Under the pieces are notes generated by a model. It made no database searches. It saw only the letters and a list, made by a program, of their open reading frames with translations, and had not been told where the DNA came from. A stretch of 33,657 nt of DNA, taken from IMG/VR virus record IMGVR_UViG_3300047325_000036, positions 1 to 33,657 of that record; one strand, 5' to 3'. Position 1 is the stretch's first letter. The number at the start of each line of letters is the position of its first letter. This document shows positions 14,848 to 33,657 of this stretch, in pieces. A program made the position numbers and the translations under genes. Source of the DNA: a virus.

Positions 14848-15255
14848 ATGAAAACCGTTATGGCTCTCGGCGCGCTGATCGCCGCTCTATTGGTTGGTCC
14901 GGCCTTCGCTGCCCCGCCTCCGGCGGCAATTGCCAACGCTAGTGGCGTCGCCGTTCCGGTCGATCCAACGACCCCCGTTGGCCTGAGCTACAAGAACATC
15001 ACGTCCGCCACGACGACGACCGTGATCACCGGCGCCGGCTGGCTGCATGGCATCTCGATCAACACCCTGGTAGCCTCGGCCACGATCACGATCTACGACA
15101 ACACCGCCGCCTCTGGCACGAAGATCGGGACCATCACGCTTCCATCGACCATCACGGGCGCAGCGCCTTTCAGCGTGCTCTACGACGTCGCCTTCACAAA
15201 CGGCCTGACGGTCGTCACCTCGGGCGCCACGGACATCACTGTCAGCGCGCGTTGA
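14848..15255 (+). CDS. Secreted-type beta-sandwich structural protein
   Basis: A 135-aa protein with a clear Sec signal peptide: Lys2, hydrophobic core ALGALIAALLVG, and an AFA cleavage site near residue 21. The mature part is beta-rich (SATITIYDNTAASGTKIGTI, then ITGAAPFSVLYDVAFTNGLT and a TSGATDITVS end), a pattern common in small phage structural proteins in the head-completion region, which usually lack a leader. A GGAGC sequence lies upstream. The leader implies periplasmic or surface export, unusual for a gene located between connector and neck genes. The stop overlaps the next ATG by one base. Role unknown; a virion decoration or exported factor is possible. Confidence 0.68.
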   Translation: MKTVMALGALIAALLVGPAFAAPPPAAIANASGVAVPVDPTTPVGLSYKNITSATTTTVITGAGWLHGISINTLVASATITIYDNTAASGTKIGTITLPSTITGAAPFSVLYDVAFTNGLTVVTSGATDITVSAR

Positions 15256-25467: not shown

Positions 25468-25842
25468 ATGTCGCAACTGCTCGACGTCGGTCATGTCTTT
25501 GGCTCCGACTTGCAACTGAGCAACACGGGCGATCTGGCCAGGGTCTCGGCAGTGACGCGCAGCACCCAGCGCATCCTGCGGCGGCTCCTGACCAACTTGG
25601 CCGAGTACATCTTCCACTTGGCCTACGGCGCCAGCGTTCCGAAGTACGTCGGCGCGATCCTCAACCTCGCCGAGATCAAGGCCAACATCATCGGTCAGAT
25701 GAAGCTCGAGCAGTCGGTGATCCAAAACCCGACGCCGACTGTGACCCTGACGCCGATCGCCAACGGCGTCTCGGTTTACGTCAGCTACCTCGTCGCGCCC
25801 GATCGCCAGCCTGCAGCTCTCTCATTTGACGTGAACATCTAA
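25468..25842 (+). CDS. Baseplate wedge protein, gp25/GPW-like
   Basis: A 124-aa protein placed between spike and gpJ, as gpW of P2 and gp25-like wedge proteins are. The sequence DLQLSNTGDLARVSAVTRST, then QRILRRLLTNLAEYIFHLAY and GASVPKYVG agrees with the family (the helix after 'xxT' and a G-x-x-P turn). A GGAGGTGA ribosome-binding sequence is immediately upstream. Its stop overlaps the next ATG by one base (taATG). The protein holds the baseplate to the sheath. Confidence 0.8.
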   Translation: MSQLLDVGHVFGSDLQLSNTGDLARVSAVTRSTQRILRRLLTNLAEYIFHLAYGASVPKYVGAILNLAEIKANIIGQMKLEQSVIQNPTPTVTLTPIANGVSVYVSYLVAPDRQPAALSFDVNI

Positions 25843-26975
25843 TGGCGCAGCTTCCGACGCAGACCTTCACCGCCCTGGTCCGCGGCCAGGTCGCGGCGAT
25901 CCAGGGCGCGGCCTCCGGACTGATCGACTTCACCATCGGCTCGATCCTTCGGGCGGTCGTGGAATCGGTCTCGCAGGTCGTGCTCTGGCTCCAGGGCCTG
26001 ATCATCCAGCTGCTGACCGTCACCCGGCTGGCGACCTCGACCGGCACAGACGTCGATACCTGGGGGACGGACTTCGATCTGCCGCGCCTGCCGGCGGCCA
26101 CGGCGACGACCGAGGAGACCTTTGGGCGCTTCAGCGCCACGCAACAGGCCGTCGTGCCGATCGGATCCAGCGTCGAGACCGCTGACGGCTCGCAGCAGTA
26201 CGTCGTCATCATCGACTACACCAACCGGGCCTACAGCAATCCGCTGGGCGGCTACGTCCTGCCGATCGGGACACTGAGCATCAACTGCCCTGTGCAGGCG
26301 TCAGTCGCCGGCTCGGGTGGCAACTGTGTGCCTGGCGCGATCAACACCATCACCTCGTCGATCCCGGGCGTGGACTTCTGCACCAACGCTGCAGCGGTCG
26401 AAAACGGCCAGGATGCCGAGACTGACGCGGCCTACAAGATTCGCTTCATCGCCTGGATCAACAGCCTGTCGCGAGCCGTGAAGGCTGCGATCAATCTGGC
26501 GGTCATCTCGACGCAGTTGAACGTGACGTGCTCGCTCGTCGAGAACATGGCGTACAACGGCAACCCACAGCCCGGGTTCTTTTATGTCGTCGCCAACGAC
26601 GGCACCGGAAACCCGCCACAGTCGCTACTGAACGCGATCGGGCAGGCTGTCGAATCCGTCCGCGGTTTCACGATCACCTACGCGATCTTCCCGCCGGTGA
26701 TCATCCCGGCCACGGTCAGCATGTCGATCACGGTTGGGATCGGTTTCGACGTCACCACAACGATCACAGCGGTTGAGAACGCGATCAGCGTCTACATGGC
26801 GCAATTGAACCTTGGGCAGGCAATGCCTTGGTCTCGGTTGGCCCAACTCGCCTATGACGCCAGCCCTGGTGTCCTGGATGTGCTGAACATCCGTCTCAAC
26901 GGTGCTCAGGCCGATATCGCGCCCACCAATCAGCAAGTGATCGAACTGACTTCGATCTCGGTCGTATCGACATGA
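25842..26975 (+). CDS. Baseplate wedge protein, gpJ family
   Basis: A 377-aa baseplate J-like protein. The N-terminal helical segment (IDFTIGSILRAVVESVSQVV) and STGTDVDTWGTDFDLPRLPA match the opening of Mu gp47/P2 gpJ proteins. A central motif region follows (GQDAETDAAYKIRFIAWINS, then LSRAVKAAINLAV). The C-terminus has the VENAISVYMAQLNLGQAMPW and ASPGVLDVLNIRLNG patterns. It forms the wedge that triggers contraction. It begins on the stop of the gp25-like gene and overlaps gpI by four bases (ATGA). Confidence 0.88.
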   Translation: MAQLPTQTFTALVRGQVAAIQGAASGLIDFTIGSILRAVVESVSQVVLWLQGLIIQLLTVTRLATSTGTDVDTWGTDFDLPRLPAATATTEETFGRFSATQQAVVPIGSSVETADGSQQYVVIIDYTNRAYSNPLGGYVLPIGTLSINCPVQASVAGSGGNCVPGAINTITSSIPGVDFCTNAAAVENGQDAETDAAYKIRFIAWINSLSRAVKAAINLAVISTQLNVTCSLVENMAYNGNPQPGFFYVVANDGTGNPPQSLLNAIGQAVESVRGFTITYAIFPPVIIPATVSMSITVGIGFDVTTTITAVENAISVYMAQLNLGQAMPWSRLAQLAYDASPGVLDVLNIRLNGAQADIAPTNQQVIELTSISVVST

Positions 26976-27727
26976 CGGGCGACCAAACGGACGTCTTCAA
27001 ACGGCTGAAGTCCTATCTGCCGCCCTGGTTCGGCGCCGGGCCGACGCCGGTCCTGGACAGCCTGATCGGCGGCATCGCCTGGGCCTTGGCCGGGGTCTAC
27101 GCCTTCTACGCCTACGCCAAGCTTCAGACGCGCATCCGGACGGCGACTGGCTTTTGGCTCGACATGATCGCGGCCGACTACTTCGGCACCGCGATCGTGC
27201 GCAAGCCGGGCCAGCTGGACCCATCGTTTCGGGCCTACATCATCGCCAACCTGCTGCGTCCGAGGGCGACGCGGCCGTCTATGCAGTCCTTGCTGCTGGC
27301 CATCACCGGACAAGAGCCGATCTTGTTCGAGCCAAACCGACCCTATGACACGGGTGCGTTCCACTCACCGACCTCGGTGGGCTATTTTCGGGAGGCGCGC
27401 TACGGCTCGCTAGCCGTTCCGTTCACCGCGATGATCACCGCCTACCGACCGCTCGCAGAGGGCGGACTGGCCGGCGCGGGCTTCTACAACGCCCCGAGGA
27501 CGACGGCATTCCACAACCCTTTGTCGCCTTCGTATTTCAACGACTTGTCGCTCGACACCGTCTTTGTCGATGACGCCGACATCTACGCCGCCATCGAGGC
27601 CAACAAGGTCGCCGGCACCATCTGCTGGGTCGCGCTAACCGCGCCGCCGGCGCCGCCCCCGACCCTGGTCGGTGGCCAGCTTGATTTCTCGGACGCCAAC
27701 AACAGCGCGCTCCTGGCCACGGTCTGA
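26972..27727 (+). CDS. Baseplate/tail protein, gpI-like
   Basis: A 251-aa protein after gpJ, where P2-like phages place gpI, which joins wedge and fibres. It starts with FKRLKSYLPPWFG and TPVLDSLIGGIAWALAGVYA, followed by RTATGFWLDMIAADYFG and FRAYIIANLLRPRATRPSMQ: the pattern of this family (helical N-terminus, then 'D-x-x-G' turn). The C-terminal ~140 residues are less conserved, with SPSYFNDLSLDTVFVDDAD and a Pro-rich stretch. Function follows from order and pattern; I rate it fairly certain. Confidence 0.72.
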   Translation: MTGDQTDVFKRLKSYLPPWFGAGPTPVLDSLIGGIAWALAGVYAFYAYAKLQTRIRTATGFWLDMIAADYFGTAIVRKPGQLDPSFRAYIIANLLRPRATRPSMQSLLLAITGQEPILFEPNRPYDTGAFHSPTSVGYFREARYGSLAVPFTAMITAYRPLAEGGLAGAGFYNAPRTTAFHNPLSPSYFNDLSLDTVFVDDADIYAAIEANKVAGTICWVALTAPPAPPPTLVGGQLDFSDANNSALLATV

Positions 27728-27759: not shown

Positions 27760-29793
27760 ATGGACCGACCGTTCGCCTATATCGGCGCGAGCATCTATGA
27801 GTGGCAGACGTCCGCTGGGGCGCAAGCCGCCATGGTGGGCTTGGGCAAACTTGCGCAAGCGGCGCTGGGCCCGTCGACGCAGGTCAATGGCCTGCCGTGC
27901 ACACCGACGTCGCCCGCCTCACTGCAAGTGCAAGTCGGCCCAGGCGAGATCTATCAAATCGCCCCCCTCGAAGCGACGGCGTTCGGCACGCTGCCGGCCG
28001 ACCTATCCGACACGCTGATCAAGCAGGGCGTCAACCTTCCAACGACACTGCTGGTCTGCGCGCCGCCGGCAACGGCTGGCCAGTCGATCAACTACCTGAT
28101 CGAGGCCCAGTATCAGGACGAGGACGTCTCGATCGACCCGACCACGGGCAATCAGAACATCGTCCTAGCCTTCTACAACGCCAGCAATCCGACGGTGCCG
28201 TGGAGCGGCCCCAACAACACCGGGCAGACCTCCAACACATTCCGCAAGGGCATCGTCGCCCTGCAGGCCAAGGCCGGCACCGCAGCGACCACAGGTTCTC
28301 AGGTCACACCGACGGCCGACGCCGGCTGGGTCGGGCTCTACGTCGTCACCGTGGCGAACGGCCAAACCACGATCGGCTCCGGCAACATCGCCCTTGCGGG
28401 TGGTGCGCCGTTCATCACCGAAAACCTGCCGGTCAAGATCAGCCAGGCGACCGGCGACGCACGGTATATGCAGATCGGCAGCGGGCAGGGCGGCGCGGCG
28501 AATTACTGTGTCGCCTCCGGCGGCCCCAACGCCTTCACCGCGGCGCTCTCGCCGGTTCCCTCGGCCCTGACAGAGGGCATGCGGGTCTGGGTGCTCTTTC
28601 CGAGCACGAACACCGCGGCCGGCCCGACGCTGAACCTGAACGCGACGGGCGTCGCCGAAATCTTCGAAGCCGATGGTTTGACGCCCGTCCCGATCGGCCA
28701 ACTGCCGCTCAACGCCGAACTGCTCTATCACGCGGCCGGTGGCGGCTCATGGGCGCTTCTGAGCGCTGCGCCGGTCACCGGGGCTGTCTCCAGCTTCAAC
28801 ACCCGCGCCGGCGCCGTCACACTGACCTCTGGCGATGTCACGACCGCCCTTGGCTTTACACCGCTGGATCGGGCCGGATCCGCCGCCGCCACGGCCAAGA
28901 TCACCTTCTTCACTTCGACGACCGCGTCGGCAGCGATCAATATCCCGCAAGGCGCTGTGCCTGGAACACCGGTCAACGGCGACCTCTGGACGACTTCGTC
29001 TGGCGTCTTCGCGCGCATCGCCGGCACCACCCAACAGCTCGCCACGACCACGGGCGCGGTTTCATCGTTCAACACGCGCACTGGCGCGGTGACGCTGAGC
29101 GGTTCGGACGTCAGCACGGCGCTCGGCTTTACCCCGCTCAGCCCCGCCGGCGGCGCGGCAGCTACGATGACTGGCGTCTTCAACACGGTCGCTTCGGCGG
29201 TTGGTGGGGCTGGCCTGAACATCCCGCCTGGAACGGCCCCGACAACCCCGAACAACGGCGACTTCTGGTCGACGTCGAGCGGCTTCTTCGGGCGGGTTGC
29301 GGGCGGCACGGTGCAGTTCCTCACCTCGGCCGGAACCACGACCGTTGGCGACTTCGCCGTGTGGAACAACACGACCGGGACGGCCCTGAAGGACGTCTCG
29401 GCGGCCACGGCCGCTCAGGTTTGCGCGGGTAACGACAACGGCTCACCGCTGACGTCCAACAGCCTGGCGCTGGCCGGCGCCGAGCTCGTCCTGACGGATG
29501 GGGCGACCGTCACCTGGAACATGGCGCAAGGCTTCAACGCCAACCTCACCCTTGGCGGCAACCGCACCATCACGGCTCCGACCAACCCCATTGCTGGCCG
29601 CACCTACTTCCTGCGCATCATCCAGCCGGCCAGCGGCGGTCCCTTCGCCCCTGTTCTGCCGGTGAACTTTAACTTCATGGGCGCCGGAAACCCGACCTTC
29701 AGCACCACACCGAACAAGTTCGACGCCATCGCGCTCTATTGCTACGACGCCGTGACCCCGAACTTCGTCGCCTCGTTCATCCGAGGCACCTGA
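27760..29793 (+). CDS. Tail fibre protein with tandem shaft repeats
   Basis: A 677-aa protein that follows gpI and precedes the SPRY protein. An N-terminal attachment-type domain (about 1-230) includes SLQVQVGPGEIYQIAPLEAT and IDPTTGNQNIVLAFYNASNP. A linker contains GDARYMQIGSGQGG. Two tandem repeats (about residues 341-527) start with GAVSSFNTR-[AT]-GAVTL and contain ALGFTPL and NGD-[LF]-W-[TS]-TSSG, a standard fibre-shaft repeat. The end (VTWNMAQGFNANLTLGGNRT, ITAPTNPIAG, YFLRIIQPASGG) resembles the beta-rich tip seen at fibre ends. An AAGGAT sequence lies upstream. It probably carries host specificity or holds the receptor-binding partner. Confidence 0.82.
   Translation: MDRPFAYIGASIYEWQTSAGAQAAMVGLGKLAQAALGPSTQVNGLPCTPTSPASLQVQVGPGEIYQIAPLEATAFGTLPADLSDTLIKQGVNLPTTLLVCAPPATAGQSINYLIEAQYQDEDVSIDPTTGNQNIVLAFYNASNPTVPWSGPNNTGQTSNTFRKGIVALQAKAGTAATTGSQVTPTADAGWVGLYVVTVANGQTTIGSGNIALAGGAPFITENLPVKISQATGDARYMQIGSGQGGAANYCVASGGPNAFTAALSPVPSALTEGMRVWVLFPSTNTAAGPTLNLNATGVAEIFEADGLTPVPIGQLPLNAELLYHAAGGGSWALLSAAPVTGAVSSFNTRAGAVTLTSGDVTTALGFTPLDRAGSAAATAKITFFTSTTASAAINIPQGAVPGTPVNGDLWTTSSGVFARIAGTTQQLATTTGAVSSFNTRTGAVTLSGSDVSTALGFTPLSPAGGAAATMTGVFNTVASAVGGAGLNIPPGTAPTTPNNGDFWSTSSGFFGRVAGGTVQFLTSAGTTTVGDFAVWNNTTGTALKDVSAATAAQVCAGNDNGSPLTSNSLALAGAELVLTDGATVTWNMAQGFNANLTLGGNRTITAPTNPIAGRTYFLRIIQPASGGPFAPVLPVNFNFMGAGNPTFSTTPNKFDAIALYCYDAVTPNFVASFIRGT
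28780..29340 (+). repeat. Two tandem ~91-codon repeats in the tail fibre gene
   Basis: Unit one spans 28780-29052 and unit two about 29053-29340. Both begin with the codons for GAVSSFNTR and share ALGFTPL and the NGD-W-TSSG segment, with about half the remaining residues different. The units probably arose by duplication and then diverged. They would lengthen the fibre shaft. Confidence 0.75.
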
Positions 29794-30485
29794 TGTCGAT
29801 GTTTCCCTTTCCGAGCGCCATGCTGCTCGGAGGCCAGCCGCTCGTCACGGCCTGGAACGCATCAAACCCACAGGGCTACGCGACGGTCAGCGGCGCTATC
29901 GCGACGGCCACCTATGTCAACCCGTCGTCTTCCTCCACCGGCCAGATGGCGTCCGCGACGATCGGAACGCGCCGCAAGTCGAGCGGCAAGTGGTATTTCG
30001 AGGTCACGCTGGCTGGAGCAGCGGCGACCGCCGTTGGCCAGCAAGTCGGCATCCAGCCACAGATCAACACCAATGCCAGCGACATCTATCACGTCGGGGG
30101 CATTGGAGCCGGCATCGGCATCGGCAGTCAGATTAACGCCGCCCCAGCTTCTGGGCAGGTGCTTTGCGACGACCTCAATTATAACTTCAACGGGTTCCCG
30201 CGTTTTTCTTCCGGTAGCACTATCTCTGTCGCCGTTGACCTTGATAACTTGCTGATATGGTTCGGCGTCAATGGCCAGTTCTATGGTTGGAACCCGTTTG
30301 CCTACGGGCGCCCGGCGGGTGATCCGACCTCAGGAACCTACGGCATCACGATCCCGCCAGCGTCCTACTACCCGGCCTATCAGAGCGTGGCCCAGGGCAC
30401 CGGCACCTACAGCCAGACCGCGACCCTGAACACGAAGGGCGGCTTCAAATACACGCCGCCGCCAGGCTTCGCCCCCTGGGGCTAA
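29793..30485 (+). CDS. SPRY-domain tail-associated protein
   Basis: A 230-aa protein starting at ATG 29793, overlapping the fibre stop by one base. Residues about 60-228 match a SPRY (B30.2-like) fold: SSGKWYFEVTLAG (63-75), VGIQPQ, GIGIGSQIN, VAVDLDNLLIWFGVNGQFYG (146-165), YYPAYQS and GGFKYTPPPGFAPW (216-229). SPRY domains bind proteins through surface loops and are best known in eukaryotes, though bacterial and phage versions exist. Next to the fibre, it may be an accessory receptor-binding or host-protein-binding factor. No signal peptide is visible. Confidence 0.72.
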   Translation: MSMFPFPSAMLLGGQPLVTAWNASNPQGYATVSGAIATATYVNPSSSSTGQMASATIGTRRKSSGKWYFEVTLAGAAATAVGQQVGIQPQINTNASDIYHVGGIGAGIGIGSQINAAPASGQVLCDDLNYNFNGFPRFSSGSTISVAVDLDNLLIWFGVNGQFYGWNPFAYGRPAGDPTSGTYGITIPPASYYPAYQSVAQGTGTYSQTATLNTKGGFKYTPPPGFAPWG

Positions 30486-30517: not shown

Positions 30518-31057
30518 ATGCGCGCACGCCTGTTGCTGGCCGCCCTCTGGGTTGCCTGCCTCTTCTCTGCGTCTGGCGCCCTGGCGCAGGACTATGTCGT
30601 CAAAGACGGCAATGGCTCGCCCCAGGTCATGTGCTCGGTCATCGTCGGCGGCGTCCAGTATCCGTGCCACCTGAGTTATTTCCTCCACTCAGGAAGCCCT
30701 GTCGCCGGCGCCGCCGATGCGTCGGGCAATCAAAATGTGAACGTGCTGACCGTCCCGCCCCCGGTGGCCCTGACGACGACGAACGTCTCATCGACCATCA
30801 CCAGCGGCGGCTCGTTCCAGTCGGTGATCGCAGCGCTCAACACGCGCGCGGGTTGTCTGATTGAGAACCCGACGACCGCGACCGAGCCGCTCTACGTCTA
30901 CTTCGGCGCCAACAGCTCGGCGACGGCGGCCACTTCGATTTCCTTGGCCCCAGGCGGGGTTACCAGCTGCGCGTCAGGTTCCGGCGGCGTTCTGACCGAC
31001 AATGTGTCGCTCGAAGCCGCAACGACCGGCCATGCCTTTGTGGCGATGAAACAATGA
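30518..31057 (+). CDS. Exported Cys-containing protein next to the tail fibre
   Basis: A 179-aa protein with a classical Sec signal peptide: Arg2/Arg4, hydrophobic LLLAALWVACLFSA, and cleavage after ALA (about residue 23). The mature part has Cys in QVMCSVIVGG, QYPCHLSY, RAGCLIEN and TSCASGSGG, which could form disulfides in the periplasm. C-terminal ~100 residues are beta-like (PLYVYFGANSSATAATSISL). A CGGAGAA sequence lies upstream. It overlaps the next gene as ATGA. An exported protein here could act in adhesion, fibre assembly or modification of the host envelope. Family not recognised. Confidence 0.7.
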   Translation: MRARLLLAALWVACLFSASGALAQDYVVKDGNGSPQVMCSVIVGGVQYPCHLSYFLHSGSPVAGAADASGNQNVNVLTVPPPVALTTTNVSSTITSGGSFQSVIAALNTRAGCLIENPTTATEPLYVYFGANSSATAATSISLAPGGVTSCASGSGGVLTDNVSLEAATTGHAFVAMKQ

Positions 31058-33657
31058 TCCGGCTCATTCGCGCTGCGGCGCTCGCCGCACTCCTCCTCGG
31101 CGGTCCAGTCGCCGCTCAGACCGTAACGCCGGGTGGCGGCGGGTCGAGCATCGCCACGCCCGTGAGCGTGCCCAATGGCGGTTCTGGCGCAGCCACGCTG
31201 ACGAGCCACGCCGCGGTGCTTGGGCAGGGCACGTCCGCTGTTCACTTTGCCGCCCCTGGCGCGTCGGGCACCGTCCTGACAAGCAACGGGACGACATCGG
31301 ACCCGACTTTCCAGGCCGTCAGTGGGGTCGGGACCGTGACGTCCGTGACTTGCGGAACCGGCTTGACGGGCGGCGCCATCACGTCCTCTGGGACATGCGC
31401 TCTTTCGGCTCCCGTTTCGGTCGCGTTGGGGGGCACGAATGCCACTTCGGCCAGCGGCACCGCGCTCGACAACATCACCGGCTTTAGTTCCACTGGCTTC
31501 ATCAATCGGACCGGGGCAGGGACTTACACCTTCTCGTCAGTCCCGACGATCACCTCGACGCCGGTCGCCAATGATTGCGCGTCCTGGGCGTCGCCGTCGG
31601 CGGTGCAGGACTCGGGCGCGCCTTGCGGCACCGGCACAGTCACCAGCGTTGGCCTCTCGCTGCCCTCGATGTTCAGCGTCTCAGGCTCGCCGATTGCGGG
31701 TAGCGGCACGCTGACTGCGAGCCTGGCCTCGCAAGCCATGGGCGCGGTCTTGATCGGCCCCACGTCGGGCTCAGCGGCGCCGACGTTCCGAGCTCTGCAG
31801 GGCGCCGACCTCCCGCAGCCGACATCCTCGACGCTGGGCGGCGTCGAAAGCCTCGCCTCGACATCGCATCAGTGGATCAACTCGATCTCCACGACCGGTG
31901 TGCCGACGTCTTCTCAGCCCAACGTCTCCGACCTCGCGGGCGGTGTCACCGGCCCCTATACGGGAGAGGTCTCACAGCCGTTGCCGCCGGCAGGTGATCC
32001 GCCATGCCTGAACATCTTTCGGTATCTGAACTCGACGCAGGTCAGCGCCGTCAAGGGGTTTACGGCTACGACCGCGACTGTGGATTTCGCCACGATTCTG
32101 CCCAGAGCGATCAGCGCGATAACCTACGCCAGCGCCAACGGAAACGCCGGCCCCGAGATTTGTTTGCCGCCGGGTCTATACCCGTTCAGCGCGACTCTGG
32201 ATATCCAGACGCAAGTAACCATTAGGGGATCCGGTGGCGGCGGGGGGCTGGCGGGGACCGCGTTCGGCACCGAACTGCTATTCCCGGCCAACACCCCCGG
32301 TATCATTCTCGATCAGTACGGGACCACGGCCTGCGCGGCTTCATCTTCGACAACGACAGCGGCCGGCACGGTTATCGAAAACCTTGCGGTCGTAGGGAGC
32401 GGGACCAGTACGTCTAACCACGGTATTCACATGTGCGTCCGCGCCAAGCTGCGCGACGTCAATCTTCTGAACTTTTCAGGCTATCAGGTATGGGTCGACG
32501 GGACCAACGGAAATGCCAATGAAGTCGACATAGATACGCTAAATTGCCAAAGCCCAACCAGCCTGTGGTGTCTTTATATCCAAGGAGGTAACGCAAACGC
32601 CGGCAACTACACCGGTATTGGGGTTCTTACGTCCGGCGGCGGCGGGATTGCTGATCGAAGTTTCTTGGGAAGCAACCTATCGGCTGTACACATAGACCAG
32701 GACGACTTGTTAAATGAGGGTTCCGTTACTTACGGCGGCAATGTTTATGCCCTGATTAATTATACACCCGGCATCGGCGCGAGTACGACGCCCGGCACAA
32801 ACAACGCAATTTGGTACAACGAAGGCGTGGGAAGCGGGCCGCCCGCCTGGAGCGGTTCCGGCACCTACATTGTTTCGGCGCCGATATTCGGGGATCAAGC
32901 CAACGCTCGAAGTGTTTGGACTGATCCTTATGTCGAGACAGGCTATCCCATCAGCCACGTATCGCCACCAGGGATTGTGATTGGTGGCAACATTCAAACT
33001 GCGTTCACCAGCTACACGCCGTTCATCTACTCGGCGTCTGGCGTTGGAGGCTTTATCGCCAGCCCGAACGGCATGGGCGGCTTTCAGTATCTCACCAGTG
33101 GCGACCTTCGCGGAACCTTCGCTGACAGCTATGCGGGATACGACGGTATGCACGTCAATAACCAAGCGGGCCTAGGGTTTCAAATCTCACCAGACCTCGG
33201 CGTCAGTGATCCATACGATGTAGCCCTGTGGTGGAGCAGCACCGGGATTTCCGCCGTCGCAACGGGCCAGTTTACTGCTCTGACCTTCGGCCGCACGAGT
33301 GCCTTCCCCTATGCCTTCACCGCCAGCAACTTCGCCATCGGAGACGGTGGGAATAACCCATATAACGGGAATGCGCGAGGTATCAGAAACGGTACGGCGA
33401 GCCCGACAAGCACGGGCGATGCGGTTGGCGAGATCGTGTTCAACCGTACTCCCGCCACCGGTCAGCCCATATGCTGGATGGAGACGACACAAGGATCGCC
33501 TGATACATGGGCCGCTTGCCCGCCCCTTGGCGCTACAGCCGTCCTCAGCGGCACGTCCGCTTCACTTGGCGGCAGTTCTCTAGCAGCTGGAGCCTGCTCC
33601 ACCACGACAGTCTCAATCACCGGCCTGACGACATCCATGGCGATTGAGGCGACGCCA
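31054..33657 (+). CDS. Tailspike-like beta-helix protein with signal peptide, 3' partial
   Basis: An open frame of 868 codons with no stop before the window end. The start is ATG 31054 in an ATGA overlap. It opens with a signal peptide (MIRLIRAAALAALLLGGPVA, cleavage near AQ). Residues about 25-300 contain fibre-like repeats (GTVTSVTCGTGLTGG; GTVTSVGLSLPSMFSVSG; LPQPTSSTLGGVES). From about residue 365, EICLPPGLYPFSATLDIQTQ, VTIRGSGG, TVIENLAVVG and KLRDVNLLNFSGYQVWVDG give the pattern of a pectate-lyase-like right-handed beta-helix, the fold of many capsule-degrading spikes. The end (AAGACSTTTVSITGLTTSMA) is the start of a C-terminal domain common in fibre proteins. At least 13 Cys occur. Catalytic residues are not evident. 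Confidence 0.78.
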   Translation, partial: MIRLIRAAALAALLLGGPVAAQTVTPGGGGSSIATPVSVPNGGSGAATLTSHAAVLGQGTSAVHFAAPGASGTVLTSNGTTSDPTFQAVSGVGTVTSVTCGTGLTGGAITSSGTCALSAPVSVALGGTNATSASGTALDNITGFSSTGFINRTGAGTYTFSSVPTITSTPVANDCASWASPSAVQDSGAPCGTGTVTSVGLSLPSMFSVSGSPIAGSGTLTASLASQAMGAVLIGPTSGSAAPTFRALQGADLPQPTSSTLGGVESLASTSHQWINSISTTGVPTSSQPNVSDLAGGVTGPYTGEVSQPLPPAGDPPCLNIFRYLNSTQVSAVKGFTATTATVDFATILPRAISAITYASANGNAGPEICLPPGLYPFSATLDIQTQVTIRGSGGGGGLAGTAFGTELLFPANTPGIILDQYGTTACAASSSTTTAAGTVIENLAVVGSGTSTSNHGIHMCVRAKLRDVNLLNFSGYQVWVDGTNGNANEVDIDTLNCQSPTSLWCLYIQGGNANAGNYTGIGVLTSGGGGIADRSFLGSNLSAVHIDQDDLLNEGSVTYGGNVYALINYTPGIGASTTPGTNNAIWYNEGVGSGPPAWSGSGTYIVSAPIFGDQANARSVWTDPYVETGYPISHVSPPGIVIGGNIQTAFTSYTPFIYSASGVGGFIASPNGMGGFQYLTSGDLRGTFADSYAGYDGMHVNNQAGLGFQISPDLGVSDPYDVALWWSSTGISAVATGQFTALTFGRTSAFPYAFTASNFAIGDGGNNPYNGNARGIRNGTASPTSTGDAVGEIVFNRTPATGQPICWMETTQGSPDTWAACPPLGATAVLSGTSASLGGSSLAAGACSTTTVSITGLTTSMAIEATP

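Follow-up and report, generated by a model that had tools for sequence, protein, structure and literature searches.

Morphogenesis of tailed phages is generally taken to be cytoplasmic. Why, then, would two adjoining genes at a phage fiber locus encode proteins that begin with apparent secretion leaders and contain many cysteines? The question was raised by the 3' end of the window, a stretch of 33,657 bases that is itself a complete linear IMG/VR record, and the relevant features are collected in Table 1. The original prediction described two coupled genes with signal peptides, and this description holds: ORF1 and ORF2 overlap by 4 nt (ATGA), and both start with predicted Sec/signal peptidase I leaders. 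The label "fiber locus" also stands, because the pair comes after genes for baseplate J, a gpI-like protein, a fiber-like protein and a SPRY-like protein.

Table 1. Features of the window that bear on predicted export (positions are those of the window)
Feature	Position	Strand	Description
Third leader-bearing gene	14848-15255	+	135 aa; predicted leader MKTVMALGALIAALLVGPAFA, followed by APPP; ahead of the tail genes
Baseplate J	25842-26975		Upstream of the ORF1/ORF2 pair
gpI-like gene	26972-27727		Upstream of the ORF1/ORF2 pair
Leaderless fiber-like protein	27760-29793	+	Upstream context of ORF1/ORF2
Leaderless SPRY-like small protein	29793-30485	+	Weak Pfam SPRY match; phrog_19943 virion structural protein, 1.6e-7
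ORF1	30518-31057	+	179 aa small protein with leader; SD-like GGAGA close 5' of the ATG
ORF1 Sec/SPase I leader	30518-30586	+	MRARLLLAALWVACLFSASGALA; predicted cut between GALA and QDYVV; rule-based test plus n/h/c anatomy
ORF1 C-terminal beta (jelly-roll type) domain	30749-31054	+	Linked to phrog_22789; alignments A3/A4
ORF1 Cys113 and Cys151 pair	30854-30970	+	Invariant with leader, absent without leader
ORF2	31054->33657	+	Tail-fiber-like, leader-bearing; at least 868 aa (868 codons visible), truncated by the contig edge
ORF2 Sec/SPase I leader	31054-31116	+	MIRLIRAAALAALLLGGPVAA; predicted cut between PVAA and QTVTP; rule-based test
Mature ORF2 N-terminus QTVTPG	31117-31134	+	Q[ST][IVL] at +1 recurs in fibers after ORF1-type genes
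ORF2 close-set Cys pairs 100/115 and 175/191	31351-31626	+

Are the N-terminal segments functional leaders? Both have a basic n-region, an uncharged h-region and an AxA-type site, and reading of the two sequences revealed neither a lipobox nor a twin-arginine motif. Leaders were detected with a home-made rule-based test, which 0.3% of shuffled N-termini pass; among plausible genes of the window only ORF1, ORF2 and the gene at 14848-15255 did so, along with one antisense ORF. Because the test fails to flag E. coli PhoA and responds to N-terminal transmembrane helices and lipoproteins as well, the argument rests on the conservation of leaders in relatives.

For ORF1, a search with the C-terminal domain brought up relatives in IMG/VR, plus others from two metagenome-assembled genomes. 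The domain was modeled with high confidence (AF2 pLDDT about 95), and its link to phrog_22789 is indirect: the profile matches the window ORF1 weakly (E 0.041), the relative L074 at 3e-11 and the phage phiM5 member at 5e-43, so that ORF1 is tied to the family via L074 and alignment A4. ORF1 had no match in INPHARED, and an NCBIfam search gave none either; among bacterial genomes the domain occurred in only two, both among the 385 examined for the class and among the 398 examined for the phylum. An attempt to name the family by fold (Foldseek/VIA) was abandoned, since the arrangement is a generic jelly-roll/cupin one and the scores are too middling, as illustrated by Ena pili 7a02 (E 1.8e-3, Z 8.5, rmsd 5.5 over 99 residues) and the PM2 spike P1 (Z 9.1, rmsd 2.3 over 80 residues).

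A leader is present in 17 of the 23 aligned family members, the window counted among the 17. Relatives with leaders are L002-L004, L042-L055, L077 and L079. Three of these (L043, L046 and L052) have near-identical C-terminal domains behind dissimilar leaders, and it is therefore the function of the leader that has been kept, not its sequence. Both Cys residues of the C-terminal pair occur in all 17 leader-bearing members, and the pair is absent from all six leaderless ones (table 17/0/0/6, Fisher 1e-5), a distribution that corresponds to a single change on the tree. The leaderless relatives are L074, L078, L092 and the proteins of Ochrobactrum phage ZX86 (L087), Rhizobium phage LG08 (L088) and Sinorhizobium phage phiM5 (L089). 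The last of these, Sm_phiM5_13, follows the major capsid gene and precedes one for an SGNH hydrolase; it is annotated in its record as "detected in phage particle proteome". It shares the beta domain of ORF1 and phrog_22789 but has neither leader nor Cys pair. This bears on an objection that the original prediction raised against itself, namely that leaderless homologs might behave in the same way. The objection applies only in part: leaderless relatives occur, among them the phiM5 protein with its virion record, but the Cys pair is missing from them and they are therefore not equivalent to the leader-bearing proteins.

A second, unrelated beta-domain family, to which the product of 14848-15255 belongs, has a similar distribution. 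Here a Cys pair (LHxxC ... CxxYDV) is found in five of six leader-bearing members and in none of 15 leaderless ones (table 5/1/0/15, Fisher 3e-4), with three to four changes on a weakly supported tree; the leader of one member, L105, was accepted by eye, outside the rule-based test. The exception is the window's own protein, which has a leader and no Cys.

Perhaps the hydrophobic N-terminal segments are simply uncleaved tethers or assembly elements, or chance features. The rule-based predictor does respond to transmembrane segments, and yet this reading, which we consider quite improbable, does not account for the AxA sites, the conservation that follows the predicted cut, the unlike leaders on like domains, the restriction of Cys pairs to leader-bearing members, or the low pass rate of shuffled N-termini. 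The n/h/c anatomy of ORF1 and ORF2 and the retention of a leader in diverged relatives instead point to probable substrates of Sec and signal peptidase I.

ORF2 itself is harder to classify. It contains fiber-type repeats that are common to annotated tail fibers, both leader-bearing and leaderless; however, it has no match in Pfam or PHROG, and sequence comparison with the PDB gave chance matches only. The name "spike" used in the original prediction is thus not established: neither Pfam nor PDB yielded a beta-helix or pectate-lyase domain in ORF2, and the structure model is unusable (AF2 pLDDT 30.6). A strict HMM of the fiber repeat recovered too few members; Blast with ORF2 led to many leader-bearing fibers among the fetched loci. 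Most leader-bearing genes of the ORF1 type precede, and often overlap, a fiber gene with a leader of its own, and the mature form of these fibers mostly begins with Q[ST][IVL]. The genomic setting of the ORF1-type genes varies, from a position after baseplate genes in the window to one directly after the terminase gene in L004.

A further group of leader-bearing fibers was collected by searching for the BcepC6B-type mature N-terminus, which gave 170 loci, of which 80 were fetched and 71 were distinct. A leader precedes the mature motif [AT]TLxP[IV]QLLNP in 71 of these 71; the motif is present by construction, having been the query, but the leader ahead of it is not. Except in one locus, where the predicted cut is shifted, the leader ends at the motif or only a few residues away. 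Leader-bearing fiber genes occur in the cultured phages BcepC6B (gp19), PBR31 (orf035), Shewanella phage QDWS and Bradyrhizobium phage ppBdUSDA122-1. The records of BcepC6B, PBR31 and ppBdUSDA122-1 annotate them as "tail fiber" or "structural", in one case as "hypothetical", and do not mention leaders; the leaders are of the same kind as that of ORF2, whereas the fiber sequences are unlike it. In ppBdUSDA122-1 two consecutive genes of the fiber locus are leader-bearing (L061:1377-5458), and the second encodes 18 Cys. Some loci (L043:5367-5828, L053:7493-7966 and L035:12210-12698) have a further small leader-bearing protein with four Cys 3' of the leader-bearing fiber, so that cassettes for three predicted exported proteins exist.

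How do these proteins compare with conventional fibers? Their C-terminal, distal regions are homologous to tail fibers of phrog_863, 454, 6202 and 11393 and to gp49 of the Kp2/KP34 type; the leaderless fiber of phage Kp2 shares this C-terminus. The difference lies at the N-terminus, where these conventional fibers have a virion-anchor domain and no leader, and the leader-bearing class has a Sec leader and a short conserved peptide in its place. One exception is a collar-type tail fiber (L047:4980-5717) in which the leader is placed ahead of an otherwise ordinary N-terminus. In ORF2 no virion-anchor domain was recognized, and the leader and the short QTVTP peptide occupy that position; the missing match is compatible with an anchor domain being there.

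The argument from cysteines needs to be restated. The counts given in the original prediction, four after the leader in ORF1 and 13 in ORF2, are correct: ORF1 has Cys14 within the leader and Cys39, 50, 113 and 151 after it, and all of those in ORF2 follow the leader (residues 100, 115, 175, 191, 318, 370, 427, 461, 498, 506, 807, 822 and 848). Export and disulfides, which that prediction set against cytoplasmic assembly, are well supported by conserved leaders and co-varying Cys pairs, but the sheer number of cysteines is no argument. Leaderless tailspikes encoded just upstream of leader-bearing fibers are richer in Cys (median 1.52 per 100 aa in 30 spikes, versus 1.08 in the leader-bearing fibers), and the virion of Agrobacterium phage Milano contains a disulfide network among its structural proteins (PMC10491603). 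Because the leaderless neighbors have more, Cys number is not diagnostic, and Cys abundance was rejected as evidence of export, even though within the ORF2-like set leader-bearing members have more Cys per 100 aa than leaderless ones (1.17 versus 0.19).

The discriminating feature in these sequences is Cys pairing, in the form of even counts and co-varying pairs. Of the 52 sequence clusters of mature leader-bearing fibers, 44 have an even number of Cys (p 4e-7), or 38 of 46 when zeros are excluded; the corresponding figure for the leaderless upstream spikes is 12 of 30. Paired cysteines in these fibers, and co-varying ones in the ORF1 and 14848 families, thus suggest disulfides. The visible count in ORF2 is odd, but the gene is truncated and Cys848 lies beside the contig edge; on one reading, the twelve Cys that precede it make up six consecutive pairs, which leaves Cys848 alone. 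Relatives of the ORF2 C-terminus, sought as a source of the Cys848 partner, were not found.

Disulfides could also form in ordinary cytoplasmic fibers after their release from the cell, as is possibly the case in Milano, in which event export would be irrelevant. The many disulfides of Milano virions and the Cys-rich leaderless spikes described here fit such a scheme. However, it leaves the leaders unexplained, as well as the loss of exactly the paired Cys in leaderless relatives, and we judge it very improbable. The Milano bonds are mostly inter-subunit bonds of the capsid, neck, collar and sheath, and the paper mentions no signal peptide (PMC10491603).

The simplest account of the leaders, the conservation that begins at +1 and the Cys pairing is periplasmic export, cleavage and oxidative folding, and for this part of the pathway our confidence is high. 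ORF1 and ORF2 would be receptor-binding or decoration appendages of a tailed phage with a Gram-negative, probably alphaproteobacterial, host. Both would be exported by Sec before lysis, and cleavage by signal peptidase I would leave a mature fiber that starts with a conserved short peptide (QTVTP). Folding, oligomerization and formation of intrachain disulfides would take place in the periplasm. Lysis would bring the exported proteins together with virions built in the cytoplasm, on which they would dock via the mature N-terminal peptide, the ORF1 jelly-roll protein, or both.

That complete chain, through attachment at lysis, we put at even odds. Attachment is suggested by C-termini of the fiber type and by conservation at the mature N-terminus, as well as by the many leader-bearing fibers encoded directly 3' of a tailspike gene (gap 0-15 nt), the phiM5 proteome note and the collar-type fiber L047. 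On the other side, fibers with the QLLNP motif are often found not next to a spike but at the end of a prophage, behind the lysis genes, a placement that would suit a secreted accessory protein as well; the 14848 protein and several leader-bearing fibers are Cys-free; and the co-variation in the ORF1 family reflects one change on the tree. We found no proteomics placing any leader-bearing member in a virion.

The main rival is that the proteins are exported and never enter the virion, acting late in infection as soluble or outer-surface adhesins or depolymerases that block receptors (for superinfection exclusion, or to shield progeny from debris) or loosen capsule or EPS for release. In the comparison with KP34-type fibers the leader does replace the virion-anchor part of a protein that otherwise matches distal tail-fiber regions, many of the genes come after the lysis genes where a prophage ends, with an O-acyltransferase on the opposite strand next to them, and some leader-bearing proteins carry pectate-lyase or beta-helix domains. 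Considering, however, that conservation of the mature N-terminus starts at +1, as a docking peptide would require, that so many of the genes adjoin a tailspike gene, that an ORF1-domain relative is recorded in phiM5 virions, and that L047 retains an ordinary fiber N-terminus behind its leader, we find this role rather unlikely.

The prophage-end genes raise the related idea of lysogenic conversion, with an adhesin or enzyme expressed from the prophage on the lysogen surface. Several related loci are prophage-like and lie beside acyltransferases; in L127, L145, L148, L164 and L186 the leader-bearing fibers at prophage ends adjoin opposite-strand acyltransferase-like genes, as in serotype conversion. 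The lom gene of phage lambda, which is leader-bearing and located in the tail-fiber locus between spike and fiber genes, provides a precedent (PMC12309495), although Lom is an outer-membrane beta-barrel expressed in lysogeny and not a fiber. The window pair, by contrast, is collinear with the tail genes, ORF2 overlaps ORF1, and no autotransporter or lipobox anchor was seen, which makes conversion improbable here, if slightly less so than an uncleaved or chance hydrophobic segment. Exported roles outside the virion are, taken together, possible at appreciably less than even confidence, and the remaining probability goes to no export or to irrelevant export.

Coat proteins of filamentous phages are inserted into the membrane and extruded by phages that are neither lytic nor tailed. 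They are virion proteins made with Sec leaders, as exemplified by G3p of M13 (PMC8310372), and have such leaders in common with the class described here. For tailed-phage fibers, we found no account of Sec leaders in the openly searchable literature, which makes the absence weak evidence; the combination of leader and fiber appears to have gone unremarked.

The leader arrangement and paired Cys recur in many other viral sequences, and this suggests a hitherto overlooked group of tailed phages in which part of the fibers is made outside the cytoplasm. Tentatively, and with somewhat less than even confidence, we propose that a large class of tailed phages uses two-compartment assembly, in which head and tail would be built in the cytoplasm, disulfide-bonded fibers and decoration proteins in the periplasm, and the two joined only at lysis via an N-terminal docking peptide made by signal peptidase. 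If the fibers are indeed periplasmic, attachment would require Sec, signal peptidase and the disulfide-forming enzymes of the host, disulfides could stabilize receptor-binding proteins, and progeny would be fiberless until lysis, which could prevent premature binding to receptors or debris.

The leader and the mature motif also provide a simple sequence rule with which metagenomes can be screened for receptor-binding proteins and depolymerases that have been overlooked. Some of these are mis-annotated in their records. In Shewanella phage QDWS (L058:4947-7010, OK094664.1), an opposite-strand ORF of 194 aa covers the first part of the leader-bearing fiber gene, for which a later start is used. 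The QDWS record and that of "Hujiaoplasma phage zrk29-1" (OP650936.1) are both 47,902 long and give identical matches; possibly they are one sequence with conflicting hosts.
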